Shown: one piece after another, positions 1-62,109 of the stretch
Numbering within the stretch: the first letter of the stretch is position 1
Layout of the letters: every line of letters begins with the position of its first letter
Assembly: GCA_026932145.1 (NCBI GenBank)
Contig: JAIXKT010000007.1
Coordinates: 155,436 to 219,435 of the forward strand
Direction of reading: 5' to 3'
Length of the DNA stretch: 64,000 bases
Origin: Bacteroidia bacterium
GTDB taxonomy: Bacteria > Bacteroidota > Bacteroidia > J057 > JAIXKT01
Notes under the pieces: model-generated
Told to the model about the DNA's origin: nothing
What the model saw: only the letters and a program-made list of their open reading frames with translations
The model's database searches: none
Program-made: the position numbers and the translations under genes

Positions 1-1457
1 AGCGTTATCCTAAGCGGGAATCTTCCTACTCACAAGACAGAGAGCGTTATCCTAAGCGGGAATCTTCCTACTCACAAGACAGAGAGCGTTATCCTAAACG
101 GGAATCTTCCTACTCACAAGACAGAGAGCGTTACCCTAAGCGGGAATCTTCCTACTCACAAGATAGAGAGCGTTATCCTAAGCGGGAATCTTTTTATTCA
201 CAAGACAGAGAGCGTTATCCTAAGCGGGAATCTTCAGATTCACAAGACAGAGAGCGTTATCCCAAGCGGGAATCTTCAGATTCACAAGATAGAGAGCGTT
301 ATCCCAAGCGAGAATCATCCTACTCACAAGACAGAGATCGTTATCCCAAGCGAGAATCTTCCTACTCACAAGATAGAGAGCGTTATCCTAAGCGGGAATC
401 ATCAGATTCACAAGACAGAGAGCGTTATCCTAAGCGGGAATCATCCTACTCACAAGACAGAGAGCGTTATCCCAAGCGGGAATCATCCTACTCACAAGAT
501 AGAGAGCGTTATCCTAAGCGGGAGTCATCTTATTCACAAGATAGAGAGCGTTACTCGGAGACTGGATCGGATAGAGATCCAGAACTTTCAAAAAGGCTAC
601 AAGAGCATTTTAATAATAGACGAAGTGATTCTCCCAAAGGTGGGCGTGGAAAAACGTTTCGGAGAAATACATTTGCTGATTCATTACCAAGTAAGAGTGA
701 GATTTTTACGCACGCAGAAACGGTTATGCGACTCAATCGTTACATGGCTATTTCCGGCTGCTGTGCCCGTAGAGATGCTGATGACTTAATTGTAAAGGGA
801 CAAGTTACTGTAAATGGAGATGTTGTAACTACGCTGGGTGCCCGTGTAAATACAGAAACAGATGTTATACAAGTGAACGGGAAAACGGTTAAGCCGCAAC
901 ATTATGTTTATATTTTACTCAACAAGCCCAAGAATTATATTACTACTACCGAAGATGATAAAGAAAGAAAAACGGTTTTAGAGCTGTTAAATAATCTGCC
1001 AACTAAGAGGGTTTTTCCGGTGGGTAGATTGGATAGAAATACAACCGGAATCTTGTTGATTACAAATGACGGCTCTTTAACAGAAAAACTAACCCATCCT
1101 TCATTTGAAGTTTCTAAGGTTTATCATGTTCGTTTAGATAGACCTGTAAAACCAGAAGATATGGAGGCACTTCAAACCGGGATTATGTTAGAAGATGGCT
1201 TTTCTAAGGTAGATAAAATCAGTTATATTGAGATAAATGACCGAATTTCAACAGACCAAGTGGGAGTAGAAATCCACATGGGTAAGAATAGAATTATCCG
1301 CAGAATGTTTGAACATCTTGGGTATCAGGTAATGTCTTTAGACAGAACTAAATATGCTTCTTTAACCAAAAAAGGAGTACCGCGTGGGCATTGGCGTTTT
1401 TTAACATCCAAAGAAGTAGCCTACTTAAAAATGCTTCCCGATAAGTCAGAATCTTAA
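1..1457 (+). CDS. rluB: RluB/RsuA-family rRNA pseudouridine synthase with a repetitive N-terminal extension (5' end outside window)
   Basis: Isomerises a uridine in ribosomal RNA to pseudouridine, by family assignment. From the Met codon at 726 the protein has an S4 RNA-binding domain (about the first 50 residues, starting MRLNRYMAISG) and then the synthase domain with the signature GRLDRNTTGILL; the catalytic Asp codon is 1032-1034. The frame stays open without a stop from position 3 to 726. The protein therefore carries an N-terminal extension of at least 240 residues: thirteen 14-residue repeats (RYPKRESSYSQDRE type), then a basic linker, before the S4 domain. Charged, disordered N-terminal extensions on this enzyme are common in Bacteroidota, from my knowledge of the family. 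The true start lies left of the window. Met 726 could be an internal start, but I see no promoter box in front of it. The stop overlaps the convergent gene by 4 bases. Confidence 0.9.
   Translation, partial: RYPKRESSYSQDRERYPKRESSYSQDRERYPKRESSYSQDRERYPKRESSYSQDRERYPKRESFYSQDRERYPKRESSDSQDRERYPKRESSDSQDRERYPKRESSYSQDRDRYPKRESSYSQDRERYPKRESSDSQDRERYPKRESSYSQDRERYPKRESSYSQDRERYPKRESSYSQDRERYSETGSDRDPELSKRLQEHFNNRRSDSPKGGRGKTFRRNTFADSLPSKSEIFTHAETVMRLNRYMAISGCCARRDADDLIVKGQVTVNGDVVTTLGARVNTETDVIQVNGKTVKPQHYVYILLNKPKNYITTTEDDKERKTVLELLNNLPTKRVFPVGRLDRNTTGILLITNDGSLTEKLTHPSFEVSKVYHVRLDRPVKPEDMEALQTGIMLEDGFSKVDKISYIEINDRISTDQVGVEIHMGKNRIIRRMFEHLGYQVMSLDRTKYASLTKKGVPRGHWRFLTSKEVAYLKMLPDKSES
3..548 (+). 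repeat. Thirteen tandem in-frame 42-bp repeats (14 codons each) coding a low-complexity basic/acidic segment
   Basis: Units start at 3, 45, 87, 129, 171, 213, 255, 297, 339, 381, 423, 465 and 507, all exactly 42 bases. Differences between units are mostly synonymous (for example cct/ccc for Pro, tct/tca for Ser, gac/gat for Asp). The few amino-acid changes are Tyr to Asp, Ser to Phe and Glu to Asp. The array probably continues left of the window. It codes the N-terminal tail of the pseudouridine synthase. Confidence 0.95.
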
Positions 1458-5445: not shown

Positions 5446-5578
5446 GAGTCTGTTTTTCGATTGCCAAGTTACAAGTTTTTACAACATCAAGGTTATCCTC
5501 AACCGTTAATATTGCTTCAATAGTATGCCACTATTATTTTGTGGTTTATGGTATTCTCTAAAATATTACTTTCGTACT

Positions 5579-8500
5579 GTGAAAAAATTGAGTTTAATAT
5601 TACTTTTGGGGTTAGTTTCTTACTTAGCTTATGGCCAGTTTGAGGTTCCCCAAATAGTAATTGATGCAGAGGGGCATAGCGGAACCATTAAAGCCTTGCG
5701 TTTTACACCGGATGGTTCTAAGTTAGTTTCTTTTTCGGACGATAAAACGATTAAGATTTGGGACGTAGAGACAGGAGAGCTTATTCAGACGCTGCGTGGA
5801 CCGGCTATGGTAGGCCCTATGGGAATGGTAAACTCCGGTGCAATACACCCAAATGGAAATGTAATTGTATCAGGTGGATATTTTGGACCAGAAGTAAGTG
5901 AAAAATCCCAACTAATGGGGCGCATATTTTTATGGGATATTAACACCGGAAAAATCATCAAACAACTTAATGGACCTGAAAGTCCGGTTATTGCCTTGGA
6001 TATTTCCCCAAATGGAAAATGGCTCACCTGTGGAACTACCGATAATGAAATTGGTCTCTGGAATTTAACAGAATCTTCTCCCGGTATGAACCTAAGCGGT
6101 CATACCGAGCCTGTTTATGTAACCCAGTTTTCTCCAGATTCAAAATACTTAGTTACCGGAGGCTATGACAAAAAATTAATTCGCTGGGATTTATCTTCTT
6201 TTGTGCCCAATAAGCAGCCCGTTTATACGCTTATGACCGGCGGCCATACCGAAGAAATTAGAACCGGAACTTTTACCCCTGATGGTCAATTTTTTATATC
6301 AGGAGGCTATGATAATCAGCTAATTGTTTGGAACCAAGCCGGAAAAATAGAGCGTTATTTAGACCAAATTAAAGACCCAAATTATCCTGATTATTCATCA
6401 TTGGGAGATATTCATAGCTTAGCAATTACCCAAGATGGGAAATATGTAATTGTGGGCACTATTTTAACTACCGGAAAAAACGTGCAAATACTTGATTTTC
6501 AAACTGGTAAAATTGTCAAAACCTTTGATAAACATGATAACACCGTTACGGCAGTAACTACTTTTGGGGGTGAATGGGTTGCCTCAGCCGGCGGAGAAAA
6601 CCGTGATATTTATATCTGGAACATAAAAACCGGTGCTATAAAGCAGCATTTCGCCAGTAAAGGAACCCGAATTTACTCTGTAGCAGCAGGAAAACAGGGG
6701 GTAATCGGAATCAGTACCATAAAACGAAATACATATCAGTTTAATTCTATTGGCCAAATAAATTATCAATTCTCCTATAATAGTTTAAAACTAACCCAAT
6801 CATCAGGCCAAAGTGAGAGCTATCAAGGAGCAACCAAAGAATATGGGGGTATTACCGCTGTTAGGGAAAGTGACTATATTTTACGGCTATCTAACGGAAA
6901 TACGATAAAGTTAGACCCGAATGCTGAGGGAGTTATCATGGCATATACCTTTACGCCGCAAGGAAATATTGCTGTTGCAGGCACTTTTCGCACCCAATTA
7001 TTTGATATTAAGGGCAGAAAATTGTTAGAATTTTTAGGCCATACTGCAATGGTAACTTCATTGTGTGTTTCTCAGGATAAAAAGTTTTTAATTTCGGGAA
7101 GTAGCGACCAAACGGTACGCCTTTGGGATCTCTCCGAAAAACCCACTATCGCCATTACATTTGAGGAGTTTAAGCAAATGCTAATTAAGCAATTAGGAAG
7201 CGAAGAAAAATTAAATGAAGTTATCAAAGAAAAAAATATTAACTTATCTAATTTATACTTAGATGCTTACGAGCCGTTTATTACACCATTTTGCAATTTA
7301 TTTCTCACTCAAAACGGGGAGTGGATTCTTTGGAAAAATGATAATTATTACGCAAGTTCTCCCAAAGGGAGTTCTTATGTAGGTTTTCATATAAACCAGA
7401 AAAGCGACCAAGAGGCTAAGTTTATGCCATTTGAGCAATATGATTTGCAGTATAACCGCCCTGATAAAGTGCTGCAAGCCTTAACAAACCCAGATCCCAA
7501 GCTGATAAATGCTTTTTATCGTGCTTGGCAAAAGCGCATCGAAAAATACCATGCCTTAGCTGATTCTGTGGTAAACCCAAGTGATGTTCCCAGCATAGAA
7601 TTACAAACCAATTCTCAGGTTACAGATTCATCCAATATCCGTATCAAGTTTAATGCAAGTGATTTTAAATATCGCTTAGACCGCATGAATATTTACCTCA
7701 ATGGAGTTCCGATTTATGGAATACAAGGCCAAGATTTATCTTTTGGAAACAAAGAAAAAAGCCCAACTACGCTTATTTATTCCATGAAAACACCAATTTT
7801 GCCGGGAAAAAATAAAATACAGGTTTCAGTTAAAAATAGAATAGGCATAGAATCTGAAAGGCGGACAATCACTGTTATTTCCAAAGAGAAACCGACCAAA
7901 CCGAATCTTTATGTAATCACCATAGGAACTTCCATTTATAAGGATAAGCGATTTAATCTTTCTTTAGCTGCAAAAGATGCCCAAGATATTGCTAAACAAT
8001 GGAATAATAGACAAGATTTATTTGAAAAAGTCTTTGTTCATTCCTATACCAATGAGCAGGTAACGAAAGAAAATCTATTAAAAATCAAGGAAACGCTATC
8101 AGAAGCTACTACCAAAGATGTTGTGATTCTTTTTGTAGCCGGGCACGGTATTTTAGATTCTAAATTAGATTATTACTTTGGCACACATGACATAGACTTT
8201 AATGACCCTGCCAAACGCGGATTTAGCTATCAAGAACTTGATAATCTGTTAGATGGAATCAAGCCAATCCGAAAATTATTATTGATAGACAGCTGCCATT
8301 CAGGAGAACTTGATAAAGAGGAAGTTACCAGAACACAAAATATACCGGCAGAAGTTGGTAATATCAAGTTTCGTTCGGCAGGGACAGTAGTAACGTCTAA
8401 GCCGGCTTTTGGGGAAGAAAATACGGGTATTTTATTAGGGCAATTATTTTCAGATATACGCAGAGGAACCGGCGCAACTGTTGTTGCCGCTGCCGGCGGT

Positions 8501-8722
8501 ACGGAGTTCGCATTAGAATCCAATGAATGGAACAACGGCCTCTTTACCTATGCTTTCCTAAACGGATTAACGAAGAAAGCAGCCGACCTAAATAATGATA
8601 ACATCATAATGCTCAGTGAGTTAAAAGAATATATCCAAAAAACTGTATTTGAACTCTCGCAAGGCAAGCAAAATCCTATATCACGGCAAGAAAACCCAAT
8701 TGTAGATGTTCGGCTTTGGTAG
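5579..8722 (+). CDS. Exported WD40-repeat caspase-like (peptidase C14) protein
   Basis: About 1047 residues. I chose GTG 5579 because it starts a compact signal peptide (VKKLSLILLLGLVSYLAYG, cleavage before Gln) four bases after a TACTTTCG promoter-like box; an ATG at 5525 in the same frame adds 18 residues and cannot be excluded. WD40 repeats fill residues about 30-527 (GHSGTIKAL, GHTEPVYVT, GHTEEIRTG, GHTAMVTSL). A linker with a beta-sandwich-like part follows (about 530-770), then a caspase domain from about 775. The catalytic dyad is intact: His 856 in VAGHG and Cys 906 in DSCHSG. Bacterial caspase-like proteases of this type usually cleave after basic residues. The signal peptide places it outside the cytoplasm. 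Substrate unknown. Confidence 0.85.
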   Translation: MKKLSLILLLGLVSYLAYGQFEVPQIVIDAEGHSGTIKALRFTPDGSKLVSFSDDKTIKIWDVETGELIQTLRGPAMVGPMGMVNSGAIHPNGNVIVSGGYFGPEVSEKSQLMGRIFLWDINTGKIIKQLNGPESPVIALDISPNGKWLTCGTTDNEIGLWNLTESSPGMNLSGHTEPVYVTQFSPDSKYLVTGGYDKKLIRWDLSSFVPNKQPVYTLMTGGHTEEIRTGTFTPDGQFFISGGYDNQLIVWNQAGKIERYLDQIKDPNYPDYSSLGDIHSLAITQDGKYVIVGTILTTGKNVQILDFQTGKIVKTFDKHDNTVTAVTTFGGEWVASAGGENRDIYIWNIKTGAIKQHFASKGTRIYSVAAGKQGVIGISTIKRNTYQFNSIGQINYQFSYNSLKLTQSSGQSESYQGATKEYGGITAVRESDYILRLSNGNTIKLDPNAEGVIMAYTFTPQGNIAVAGTFRTQLFDIKGRKLLEFLGHTAMVTSLCVSQDKKFLISGSSDQTVRLWDLSEKPTIAITFEEFKQMLIKQLGSEEKLNEVIKEKNINLSNLYLDAYEPFITPFCNLFLTQNGEWILWKNDNYYASSPKGSSYVGFHINQKSDQEAKFMPFEQYDLQYNRPDKVLQALTNPDPKLINAFYRAWQKRIEKYHALADSVVNPSDVPSIELQTNSQVTDSSNIRIKFNASDFKYRLDRMNIYLNGVPIYGIQGQDLSFGNKEKSPTTLIYSMKTPILPGKNKIQVSVKNRIGIESERRTITVISKEKPTKPNLYVITIGTSIYKDKRFNLSLAAKDAQDIAKQWNNRQDLFEKVFVHSYTNEQVTKENLLKIKETLSEATTKDVVILFVAGHGILDSKLDYYFGTHDIDFNDPAKRGFSYQELDNLLDGIKPIRKLLLIDSCHSGELDKEEVTRTQNIPAEVGNIKFRSAGTVVTSKPAFGEENTGILLGQLFSDIRRGTGATVVAAAGGTEFALESNEWNNGLFTYAFLNGLTKKAADLNNDNIIMLSELKEYIQKTVFELSQGKQNPISRQENPIVDVRLW

Positions 8723-57522: not shown

Positions 57523-60500
57523 ATGAAAGATGAATTAGTCTTATCTGGTCAGGCAGAAGGTGTTGAATCAACTGAAACTACTGAGGAAAAACATATTCGG
57601 CGGAAGGTTTATTTGGCATGGTCGGGGGAAGATGTCAAAGAGAAGCGGGATATTTTGGCCTTTATACTTGAAAAAGCAGGGTTAGAAGTCTATCCGCAAG
57701 GGAACATCCCATTGGAAGAGTCTGAATTTAAAGATGTTGTTATCAAGTCTTTATCTGTTACAGAATGTTATATTCATGTATTGGGTTCAACCTTTGGGAG
57801 TCCGTTAGCCAGCAATCCGGAGGTTTCTTTGCCATTGTATCAATATGAAAAGGCAAGCCAAAAATCCCGTGAAACCGCCGGAAAGTATAAACGCTTCGTT
57901 TGGAATTTACCTACCGAAAATACCCAAATAGATGAAAAACAGCAGGACTTTATTCAGGGTATTCAAAATAACCTAACTCGAGACATTATGTTTACGAGCG
58001 TAATCAGTCCGGCACAATTCGTAGAGGATATCCGCACCTCCTTACAGGAAGAAGAACAGGTAGTCTCTTTTACCAAAGAATACGATTACTGCTTTTTGTA
58101 TAACATTCAGGATGCAGCAGAATGCTACCAAATTATAGAAACAGCATCAGAAGACCACCGCATAACGACTTTAACGGTTGTTCCTGAAAATGAAGTAGAT
58201 TACCGGAGTCAGGCTATTATCCAGATACGTAAGAGCCGTTTGGCTATTGTATATTTCAAAGAATGTGCAGACTGGGCGATTTCGTTTACCAAGCAAGTTT
58301 GGAAGCTAATTGGTGGTGCATCATCAAACACACCTATCTTGATGCTGGGAGAAGATGAGCCTCGTAGAAATCGTTTTTTACGCTTTCAGGCTCCCCAACT
58401 CCAATTACAGGTACTCTCAAAAGACCAGTTTTTACCCACAATCCAAAAAACATTTGAAAAAGTTTATCGAGGACAGGCTATTGTAGAGCAAACGTTCAGC
58501 CCATACACCGGTTTACGGCCATTTTCAGAAGACGAATCTATCTTTTTTAAAGGACGCGAAAAGCATATAGACAGCATTTTGCGTATGATTGAACGGAATA
58601 AATTTTCGATGGTTACGGGCTCTTCAGGGGACGGTAAGTCATCGTTGATTTATGCCGGCGTTGTTCCCTCTGTTAAAGGGGGCTTTTTACGGTCAGTATT
58701 TAGCAAATGGGCAGTTGCCGATTTCCGCCCAGAAAGAACACCTCTTACCAACCTTTCCAATGCCTTAGCTGCGGCTTTGCGCCAGCGAAATGCCGAACAA
58801 GTAGAAACAACCCTGAGTTATGGCTTCTCTGCATTGGTAGATTTATACAAAAAATCGTCTATCTACTGCGATATAACCGGAAAAGATTACCTTGAAGCCG
58901 ATGAAGAACAACGAAGAAACTTACGCAGGCAGGCTGCAAACCTACTGATTATAGTTGACCAATTTGAGGAGTTTTTTACTAATGCCGAAAACTACCGAGA
59001 TTCCATAGCCTCTCCGGTAGCACAAATCACGGTAAACGTTCTTATCGAAACCATACGCATCGCACATGAAGAAGACCTGCCTATTTTTGTCGTCTTCACG
59101 ATGCGGTCGGACTACATTGGTCAGTGTGTCGCTTTTCGAGGTTTTGCAGAACTTATCGGCCAGAGTACGTATTTCGTCCCAAGATTAAAACGTGAAGAAA
59201 TTCAGGAAGTTATCGAAGCTCCGGCTCGGTTAAATGGAGATAAATTGAGCTTACGCCTAAGCCAACGACTGCTTAATGACTTAGGAGACGGCATAGACCA
59301 ACTACCGGTGCTTCAGCATTGTCTTCACCAAATGTGGGAAGTCGCCCAAAAAGAAAAAAAAGAAATAGACCTCCTCGAATACGCCAAAGTAGGCGGCCTA
59401 AGCGCTAATAAACTCCCCAAAGAAGACCAGTCTAAATTCCGTGAATGGTTCAACAAGCTAACTCCAGAAACCCAAAACCTATATGATAAGCCCAGATTAC
59501 GCAATATATTAAGCCGCCACGCAAATGAACTCTACGAAATAGCCCACGAATACTACAACAAAAACTACACCCCAAAGGCAGATAAAGAAACTATCACCGA
59601 AATTGTAAGAATAGCATTCATTTGTTTAACTAAAATTGATGACAATCGTGCGGTGCGAAACCGTATGACCTTAAAGCAGATTGCTGAAATTTATGGAGGC
59701 GAAGAAGCAGATTATGTTATTGTGGGGCACGTACTTAACCTATTTCGTGAACGAGGAAATAACTTTATTCAGCCTTACATCTCAAACGACCCTGATTCTG
59801 TAGAATTGCGCCCAGAATCTGTCCTTGATATTACACATGAATCCTTAATTCGGAACTGGGAAAAATTAATAGAGTGGGCTGAAGCCGAAAACAAAAGCGT
59901 TCAGATATACAACGACCTAAAAATTCAGTTAGATAGTTGGCTTGTTAATGAAAAGTCTTCCAAATATCTGTTATCTACCGGGCCATTCAGTTATTTTCAT
60001 GCATGGTATGAAAAACAACGCCCCAATCCGGCTTGGGTAAACCGCTACATCCGCCCGGACGAAATGATTCCATACTTAGAACCTATGGAACAAGCAACAC
60101 TCTATTTAGATGACTTAGAAGAGTTTCTCCGGTTAAGTAAACAAAAAATAGAACGTAACCGTAGGTTAGTATTGTTTGCTATTGGAGTGATTTCCACCCT
60201 GCTACTCATATCGCTTATTGCCACTTATTTTGCCTCATTGTCTCGTAATGAAGCGTTGATTCAAAAAGCCAATGCAGAAAGACACGCATTGATAGCAGAA
60301 AGACAGCGATTAATAGCAGAAAACAAAACTCGCGAAGCTGAAAATCAACGACTTATAGCAGAACGCGAAAAACTTAGGGCAGAAACAAACTTCCTGGTAG
60401 CAGAAGCTCAACGAAAAATTGCAGAAGGTGAACGCGCAAATGCAGTTTCACAAACAGTAATAGCCGAAAACCAACGCAAAATAGCCGAAAACGAACGTAG

Positions 60501-62109
60501 AATCGCTGAAAACCAAAGAATTATTGCTGAAAATCAAACCAAAATAGCAGACCAAGAAAGAATGCGTGCGGAAGAAAAAGAAAAAGAAGCTCTTCTTCAA
60601 CAAGAAATAGCTACCCGCCAACGTAATAACGCAATGATTACACAATCCCTCTTTTTGTCTGATTTAGCAAGGCAAGAAGTGAAAAAGAAAAACCCCATTG
60701 TAGCACTACTCTTAGCCCAGCAAGCTCTTCCCAAAGATTTATCAAATCCAGATAGACCTTACGTAGAAGAATCCGAAGCTGCTTTGTACAACGCCGTAAA
60801 CGCTATCGTAAACGAAAAACCCAAAGGAGTTCTATTAGGGCATAAGAACAAACTGATATACAACGCCTTTTCACCGGACGGAAAAACACTCGTAACCACT
60901 TCTTGGGATAAAACAGCCAGACTCTGGAACGTTTATACCGGCAAACAAATCTCTATCCTTACCGGACACACCCACATCGTTGATAATGCGTACTTCTCTG
61001 CCAGAGGAGATTTATTGGTAACGATGGCCGAAGACTTCTCTGCACGGGTCTGGACTTTCCCCGAAGGGAAAAATATATCTACCTTACGAGGCCATAAAAA
61101 CCTACTTACCCACGCCACCATCAGCACAGACGGAGCGAAAATCCTAACAACCTCTATAGACAAAACAGCCCGCATCTGGGATACCAAAACAGGAGAAGTA
61201 ACCCATGAACTTGTAGGCCATTCCGATGAAGTGTTGTATGGAGCATTTAGCCCGGACGGTTCCCGTATCGCCACAGCCTCAAAAGACGGAACAATCATTT
61301 TGTGGGATAACTCCGGCAAACAAATTCGACAAATACACGCTCACAACGCCGAAGTAGTGTTTGTAGTATTTAGTTTTGACGGAAAAATGATGGCTTCCGC
61401 CTCAAATGACAACACCGCACGCATCTATAATGCCACCACCGGAGAAAATATTTTCGTATTAAAAGGTCATAAAGCCGGCGTTAATCATGTGTCATTTAGT
61501 CATAACAACAATTTAGCCGTTACGGCCTCCAAAGACTCTACCGCAAAAGTTTGGGATACCAGAACCGGCAAAGAACTCGCTAAATTAGAATCTCACAGCG
61601 CGTCAGTGTATCATTCTGTGTTTTCACCAGATGATAAAAGAATAGCTACTTCTTCAGATGATAACACCGTTCGCTTATGGGACGGAAAGTCTTTCCTTGA
61701 GTTAGCTTTCTATGCAGGCCATACCGGCTTAGGATACTATGCCGCATTTAGCCCTGATAGTAAACGCTTAGCAGTAGCATCAGATAAGTTTTCCGTTAAG
61801 ATATACGAAGTATTCCCAAATTATCAAGACCTACTTAATTACGCAGATAGCCTCAAAAACAGAGAACTCTCGGATGAAGAAAGACGCAAATATTTTGTGT
61901 CAGATAACCGCGTAAGACAAGAAGTTCAGGAAAACAAAAAAGAAGACCAAGAAAAGAGCGAAGAGTCTAAATATTATATCGTTCAATTTGGAGAAACGAT
62001 TTATAGTATTGCCAGAAAGTTTGGAATTACCGTTGATGACTTGATGAATTGGAACAAAATAGAGAATGATAGCGTAGTACCATACCAAAAGTTACGTGTC
62101 CGAAAATAA
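57523..62109 (+). CDS. TIR-like / STAND NTPase / transmembrane / WD40 / LysM signalling protein
   Basis: 1528 residues. Order: TIR- or DUF4062-like domain (about 28-140, RRKVYLAWSGEDVKEKR); a second TIR-like segment (about 185-320); nSTAND1-type NTPase (from about 327, PYTGLRPFSEDE) with Walker A GSSGDGKS at 366-373 and Walker B LLIIVDQFEEFF with Asp 479; one membrane helix (about 882-905); an Ala/Glu-rich heptad coiled coil (about 906-1040, IAENQRKIAENER type); eight WD40-type repeats (about 1105-1445); a C-terminal LysM domain (about 1482-1528). STAND NTPases sense a ligand and oligomerise to switch on an effector. With one helix, the NTPase should be cytoplasmic and the WD40-LysM part periplasmic, where LysM can bind peptidoglycan. 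Followed 23 bases later by a TPR gene. Confidence 0.85.
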   Translation: MKDELVLSGQAEGVESTETTEEKHIRRKVYLAWSGEDVKEKRDILAFILEKAGLEVYPQGNIPLEESEFKDVVIKSLSVTECYIHVLGSTFGSPLASNPEVSLPLYQYEKASQKSRETAGKYKRFVWNLPTENTQIDEKQQDFIQGIQNNLTRDIMFTSVISPAQFVEDIRTSLQEEEQVVSFTKEYDYCFLYNIQDAAECYQIIETASEDHRITTLTVVPENEVDYRSQAIIQIRKSRLAIVYFKECADWAISFTKQVWKLIGGASSNTPILMLGEDEPRRNRFLRFQAPQLQLQVLSKDQFLPTIQKTFEKVYRGQAIVEQTFSPYTGLRPFSEDESIFFKGREKHIDSILRMIERNKFSMVTGSSGDGKSSLIYAGVVPSVKGGFLRSVFSKWAVADFRPERTPLTNLSNALAAALRQRNAEQVETTLSYGFSALVDLYKKSSIYCDITGKDYLEADEEQRRNLRRQAANLLIIVDQFEEFFTNAENYRDSIASPVAQITVNVLIETIRIAHEEDLPIFVVFTMRSDYIGQCVAFRGFAELIGQSTYFVPRLKREEIQEVIEAPARLNGDKLSLRLSQRLLNDLGDGIDQLPVLQHCLHQMWEVAQKEKKEIDLLEYAKVGGLSANKLPKEDQSKFREWFNKLTPETQNLYDKPRLRNILSRHANELYEIAHEYYNKNYTPKADKETITEIVRIAFICLTKIDDNRAVRNRMTLKQIAEIYGGEEADYVIVGHVLNLFRERGNNFIQPYISNDPDSVELRPESVLDITHESLIRNWEKLIEWAEAENKSVQIYNDLKIQLDSWLVNEKSSKYLLSTGPFSYFHAWYEKQRPNPAWVNRYIRPDEMIPYLEPMEQATLYLDDLEEFLRLSKQKIERNRRLVLFAIGVISTLLLISLIATYFASLSRNEALIQKANAERHALIAERQRLIAENKTREAENQRLIAEREKLRAETNFLVAEAQRKIAEGERANAVSQTVIAENQRKIAENERRIAENQRIIAENQTKIADQERMRAEEKEKEALLQQEIATRQRNNAMITQSLFLSDLARQEVKKKNPIVALLLAQQALPKDLSNPDRPYVEESEAALYNAVNAIVNEKPKGVLLGHKNKLIYNAFSPDGKTLVTTSWDKTARLWNVYTGKQISILTGHTHIVDNAYFSARGDLLVTMAEDFSARVWTFPEGKNISTLRGHKNLLTHATISTDGAKILTTSIDKTARIWDTKTGEVTHELVGHSDEVLYGAFSPDGSRIATASKDGTIILWDNSGKQIRQIHAHNAEVVFVVFSFDGKMMASASNDNTARIYNATTGENIFVLKGHKAGVNHVSFSHNNNLAVTASKDSTAKVWDTRTGKELAKLESHSASVYHSVFSPDDKRIATSSDDNTVRLWDGKSFLELAFYAGHTGLGYYAAFSPDSKRLAVASDKFSVKIYEVFPNYQDLLNYADSLKNRELSDEERRKYFVSDNRVRQEVQENKKEDQEKSEESKYYIVQFGETIYSIARKFGITVDDLMNWNKIENDSVVPYQKLRVRK

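Follow-up and report, generated by a model that had tools for sequence, protein, structure and literature searches.

The gene at positions 5579-8722 of the window, the 64,000-nucleotide stretch of a Bacteroidia bacterium contig analysed here, probably encodes a metacaspase-like cysteine protease that is exported by the Sec route and works in the cell envelope, tethered to a propeller and most likely soluble in the periplasm. The predicted export signal, the order of the domains and the intact, conserved catalytic residues are read from the sequence itself, while we infer the compartment, the specificity, self-processing, the part played by calcium and the role of the protein.

In the mechanism we propose, signal peptidase I would cut off residues 1-19 and free Gln20, which is expected to become pyroglutamate. 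The propeller would hold a substrate or partner, as a platform for docking or sensing, with the C14 domain positioned by the linker and an Ig-like domain. Asp800 and Asp904 would bind an Arg or Lys of the substrate, and His856 and Cys906 would cut after it. Maturation would probably occur by self-cleavage after Arg932, within a flexible loop, and an EF-hand-like loop may let calcium aid folding or activity. Its likely role is to cleave proteins of the envelope, or imported ones, in a regulated manner, and not to serve as a death switch in the cytoplasm.

Gene and domain order

What the initial annotation described is correct at these coordinates. The frame starts with a GTG at 5579 and stops at 8722. 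A signal peptide is followed by a WD40 region, a linker, an Ig-like domain and a C14 caspase domain, the Ig-like domain being an addition to that annotation.

5579..8722, + strand: WD40-C14 gene; GTG start, open frame without stops, 1,047 aa
5579..5635, + strand: predicted signal peptide, residues 1-19, predicted cut before Gln20; from the sequence, kept in orthologues, Gln at +1 as in the Q-rule
5651..7153, + strand: WD40 beta-propeller region, residues about 25-525; Pfam WD40 1.2e-53, PDB 2ymu 1.3e-90, Foldseek propellers
7430..7465, + strand: linker motif FEQYDLQYNRPD, residues 618-629; kept in the alignment of homologues
7592..7882, + strand: Ig-like beta-sandwich, residues about 672-768; AlphaFold model pLDDT about 76-95, weak Big_7 match
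7907..8689, + strand: C14 caspase domain, residues 777-1037; PF00656, model, Foldseek to GSU0716 and MALT1

The start at 5579 gives a 19-residue signal peptide, matching most orthologues. An in-frame ATG at 5525 is a possible start, but the leader would then have 37 residues, exceeding most orthologues; the cleavage site is identical for both. Six WD40 repeats exceed the Pfam threshold, and the propeller region claimed earlier is confirmed. Three features had been overlooked: an Ig-like domain, the FEQYDLQYNRPD motif and an EF-hand-like loop, DLNNDNIIMLSE. There are only four cysteines in the protein (151, 496, 572 and 906). The full-length model (pLDDT 68.6, pTM 0.48) is too weak a guide to the sensor geometry, i.e. 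the blade count and the contacts between propeller and protease.

The caspase domain

The Peptidase_C14 match (PF00656) scores 47.4 bits against a cut-off of 21.4, or 49 bits in the whole-genome search, and spans residues 780-1037 of the protein and profile positions 5-225 of 233. The residues and loops discussed below are:

7976..7978, + strand: Asp800, putative S1 pocket, equivalent of TbMCA2 Asp95; invariant in 47 homologues, aligned via metacaspase-4; role of Asp95 as in PMC4357240
8144..8146, + strand: catalytic His856 (VAGHG); invariant in 47 homologues
8288..8290, + strand: Asp904, putative S1 pocket, equivalent of TbMCA2 Asp211; invariant in 47 homologues; role of Asp211 as in PMC4357240
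8294..8296, + strand: catalytic Cys906 (DSCHSG); invariant in 47 homologues
8315..8461, + strand: flexible inter-subunit loop after the catalytic Cys, residues 913-961; low pLDDT
8372-8377, + strand: candidate self-cleavage site Arg932-Ser933 in the inter-subunit loop
8585..8620, + strand: EF-hand-like calcium loop DLNNDNIIMLSE, residues 1003-1014; EF-hand_1 2e-4 (under cut-off), 12-residue spacing, flanking model helices

Against solved structures, a C14-only profile matched metacaspase-4 (9.6e-8), GSU0716, yeast metacaspase-1, metacaspase-9 and TbMCA2, plant, yeast and trypanosome metacaspases thus being represented; the profile matches to metacaspases in the PDB cover mainly the p20 part. 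A conserved p10 domain would separate a metacaspase from an orthocaspase, which has p20 only. The single linker-C14 sequence gave no match in the PDB, the matches coming from profiles only. A model of the C-terminal half has a mean pLDDT of 82.9, with the Ig-like and C14 domains confident and C14 mostly above 90 except at residues 913-961. This model shows a confident caspase fold, which Foldseek matched to GSU0716 and MALT1.

An intact His/Cys dyad had been proposed from the motifs VAGHG and DSCHSG. These are not chance motifs, because both residues are invariant in the 47 homologues, which are mostly 19-40% identical to the WD40-C14 protein, and the claim holds. In the alignment with metacaspases, Asp800 falls on the Asp of the LRGCxND stretch and Asp904 on that of DxC, while the position of TbMCA2 Cys92 is taken by Ala797. 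As the TbMCA2 equivalents, Asp95 and Asp211, hold basic P1 residues (PMC4357240; PMC6426788), the alignment leads us to expect cleavage after Arg or Lys.

In 32 of the 47 homologues the inter-subunit loop contains an Arg that directly precedes Gly, Ser or Ala, a count above all 2,000 shuffles (mean 14.9, maximum 24). This enrichment is suggestive only, because the sequences are related and the shuffle test ignores kinship. It suggests that the protein may process itself at the Arg-small site of the loop. The EF-hand-like loop has its canonical form in 22 of the 61 family members, too few for a family hallmark, in 3 of 21 other exported C14 proteins and in none of 17 other C14 proteins. Free calcium is higher in the envelope than in the cytoplasm. 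A calcium requirement is widespread among metacaspases (PMC4357240).

Export and compartment

The predicted signal peptide is MKKLSLILLLGLVSYLAYG, and the mature protein would begin with QF. Signal peptides were called by a simple rule, a hydrophobic core plus the -3/-1 residues, backed by conservation in orthologues. Gln at +1 marks signal peptidase I substrates in Bacteroidetes, the "Q-rule" (PMC5837995). By its predicted signal peptide with Gln at +1, the WD40-C14 protein is a Sec/SPI-exported protein of the Bacteroidota type.

The family was searched for with the linker-Ig-C14 part in 100 relatives and 395 Bacteroidota genomes; the loci were fetched and the N-termini read. This gave 58 members with an open 5' end, from Bacteroidota and one Verrucomicrobiales. 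By the simple rule, 52 of the 58 have a signal peptide with Gln at +1 and five are otherwise signal-peptide-like. The sole doubtful leader belongs to a member whose frame begins inside the propeller (L068). For comparison, the rule with Gln at +1 also passed 26 of 104 non-caspase open reading frames at comparable loci, and several of the 26 can be recognised as exported proteins. The initial annotation had claimed a cleavable signal peptide, and when orthologues lacking one were looked for, 57 of the 58 proved to have a signal peptide or a similar leader, which favours export.

The same genome contains three C14 proteins, all with a signal peptide. One of the other two lies on contig C46 and is a paralogue with 43% identity. 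The other, encoded on contig C1 (L037:7103-8902, - strand), joins WD40 to a C14 caspase in about 600 aa; its signal peptide ends in FGQ, and it is not closely related to the window gene. Thirty-eight further Bacteroidota C14 proteins, sorted by eye, gave about 21 exported ones, with a signal peptide or as lipoproteins, and about 17 that are cytoplasmic or unclear, the latter mostly short and single-domain. An exported caspase had been presented as an exception; with about half of these other sampled proteins exported, this is not borne out. The exported propeller-caspase is the normal form of the family across Bacteroidota and not a one-off.

The location had been given as periplasmic or extracellular. 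Residues 525-1047 gave no match to a type IX sorting domain (PF18962 or similar) at E-values up to 10, and a type IX sorting tail is found in the gene adjoining the C46 paralogue. Because the protein has no such tail, the periplasm is its likeliest location, and the sequence is most simply read as that of a periplasmic protein; the extracellular half of the claim is less likely, as the genome does have type IX cargo. A surface location reached by another route is possible.

This bears on the strongest of the alternatives, in which the enzyme is secreted and digests protein outside the cell as food, while the propeller binds polymers or particles. The protein is exported, and a 2016 metagenome study suggested that bacterial metacaspases have extracellular roles, and also suggested the degradation of phytoplankton polymers in Bacteroidetes (PMC4933709). 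However, the sorting tail is missing from this protein though present in the genome, the narrow Arg/Lys pocket fits processing better than digestion, and the many paralogues with differing N-terminal modules indicate regulation. We consider a digestive function unlikely.

Family, genomic context and known relatives

The N-terminal module varies among the relatives (WD40, TolB-like propellers, WG repeats) while the protease is retained, and in two genomes (G057, G215) family members lie in tandem or in clusters. Taken together, the tandem or clustered copies and the swapped modules suggest a diversification of sensors on a constant protease. Tandem and clustered exported caspase genes are seen at L042 and L043 (G057), on contig C1 of G215 and on contig C6 of G235; at L043 a 178-aa C14 fragment, likely a decaying duplicate, lies beside a full copy. 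One stretch (L041:2435-13844) holds, besides a family member, a TPR protein and two more C14 genes; TPR or DUF4384 occur as partner domains, and signal peptides are present throughout. Outside Bacteroidota, a full-length member with 29% identity is found in Verrucomicrobiales (L035:6129-9836, + strand); its Cys motif is DTCQAG and it has an additional C-terminal stretch. A contig search with the single WD40-C14 protein found two loci only.

A wider reading, which we offer tentatively, is that Bacteroidota possess a large class of periplasmic, self-maturing, Arg-specific caspases with a constant linker-Ig-C14 core and exchangeable sensors (WD40, other propellers, WG repeats), for which envelope work and not cytoplasmic death may be a main job. 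Bacterial caspase relatives are discussed mostly as cytoplasmic death or immunity enzymes. An exported family with fully conserved catalytic residues gives a simple entry to the role of caspases outside the bacterial cytoplasm, and lets one ask whether self-cleavage of the loop is an on-switch. The interest lies in the family and not in the single copy, as the window gene is ordinary within it.

The neighbours of the WD40-C14 gene are housekeeping genes: a divergent lpxD-like gene upstream, and an amidohydrolase and a dprA-like gene downstream. Across the compared loci no neighbour is conserved except further caspase-type or TPR genes and one lipoprotein-like gene, the latter common to L034 and L041 only, and beyond these no operon or partner gene could be proposed. 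Membership in a defence system was also considered, and the PADLOC matches are weak only; the HEAT-ARM_XIII match falls in the WD40 part and recurs in the other WD40 protein of the window.

That other protein (57523-62109, + strand) has a TIR-like N-terminus, an nSTAND1 NTPase (4e-68), one membrane segment, a coiled coil, a WD40 propeller and a C-terminal LysM-like stretch. The initial annotation had linked this STAND protein with the caspase, and their co-occurrence gives no support to the link. Among the 100 relatives, close WD40-C14 homologues occur in seven genomes (G009, G015, G034, G038, G057, G061, G097) and full-length STAND homologues, 44-58% identical, in six (G001, G005, G006, G008, G010, G063), with no overlap. 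At loose thresholds the overlap is 6 of 12 genomes, against 4.1 expected.

These results weigh on a second alternative, a death or anti-phage effector that works from the envelope side, e.g. by killing the cell or its neighbours upon damage. Its fold relatives function in cell death, the PADLOC "caspase" model gives a weak match (1.3e-5) and a survey from 2012 put forward roles in death or fratricide at the surface (PMC3501461). Set against this are the unconserved housekeeping neighbours, the failure to co-occur with the STAND protein, and the model for EACC1-associated caspases (NF047832), whose cut-off is not reached (68 of 140 bits). We regard such an effector as slightly less probable still than the digestive protease. 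That the caspase domain is a scaffold no longer serving as a protease is very improbable, since pseudo-orthocaspases do exist in bacteria but make up only 10 of 1078 Bacteroidetes sequences (PMC6426788), and here His, Cys and both pocket Asp are retained in 47 of 47 homologues.

The periplasmic processing protease that we favour can be compared with several known systems. With the bacterial orthocaspases and metacaspases of C14 (GSU0716, MaOC1) it has PF00656, the His/Cys dyad and the acidic pocket residues in common; it differs in being exported and fused to a WD40 region, a linker and an Ig-like domain, none of which is present in GSU0716 (285 residues in the solved chain). The MALT1 paracaspase has Arg specificity and, like our protein, a caspase fold adjoining an Ig-like domain (Foldseek E-value 4e-9). 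However, MALT1 is eukaryotic, cytoplasmic and about 15% identical, and in the matched constructs its Ig3 follows the caspase domain. The gingipains (C25, Porphyromonas gingivalis) are likewise clan CD cysteine proteases that Bacteroidota export; Gln follows their signal peptide, and they have the Arg/Lys specificity expected for the window protein. They differ in belonging to another peptidase family and in having a type IX sorting domain, and their destination is the cell surface.

The type of protein is already known: in 2012 Asplund-Samuelsson et al. reported WD40-C14 proteins of bacteria that may carry signal peptides (PMC3501461). In that survey WD40 was the partner domain seen most often (10.9% of 671 sequences), helices at the N-terminus were read as likely signal peptides, extracellular roles were suggested, and 28 genes were counted in Haliscomenobacter, a member of the Bacteroidetes (PMC3501461). 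The widely distributed WD40 form described there was metacaspase-NACHT-WD40 (PMC3501461), while the window protein has no NTPase and its protease is C-terminal. A limited literature search found no assayed exported C14 protease from bacteria.

Elsewhere in the window, an open frame at 3-1454 (+ strand) lies upstream of a pseudouridine synthase gene (726-1457) and is continuous with it; its repeats of RYPKRESSYSQDRE form a repetitive N-terminal extension.
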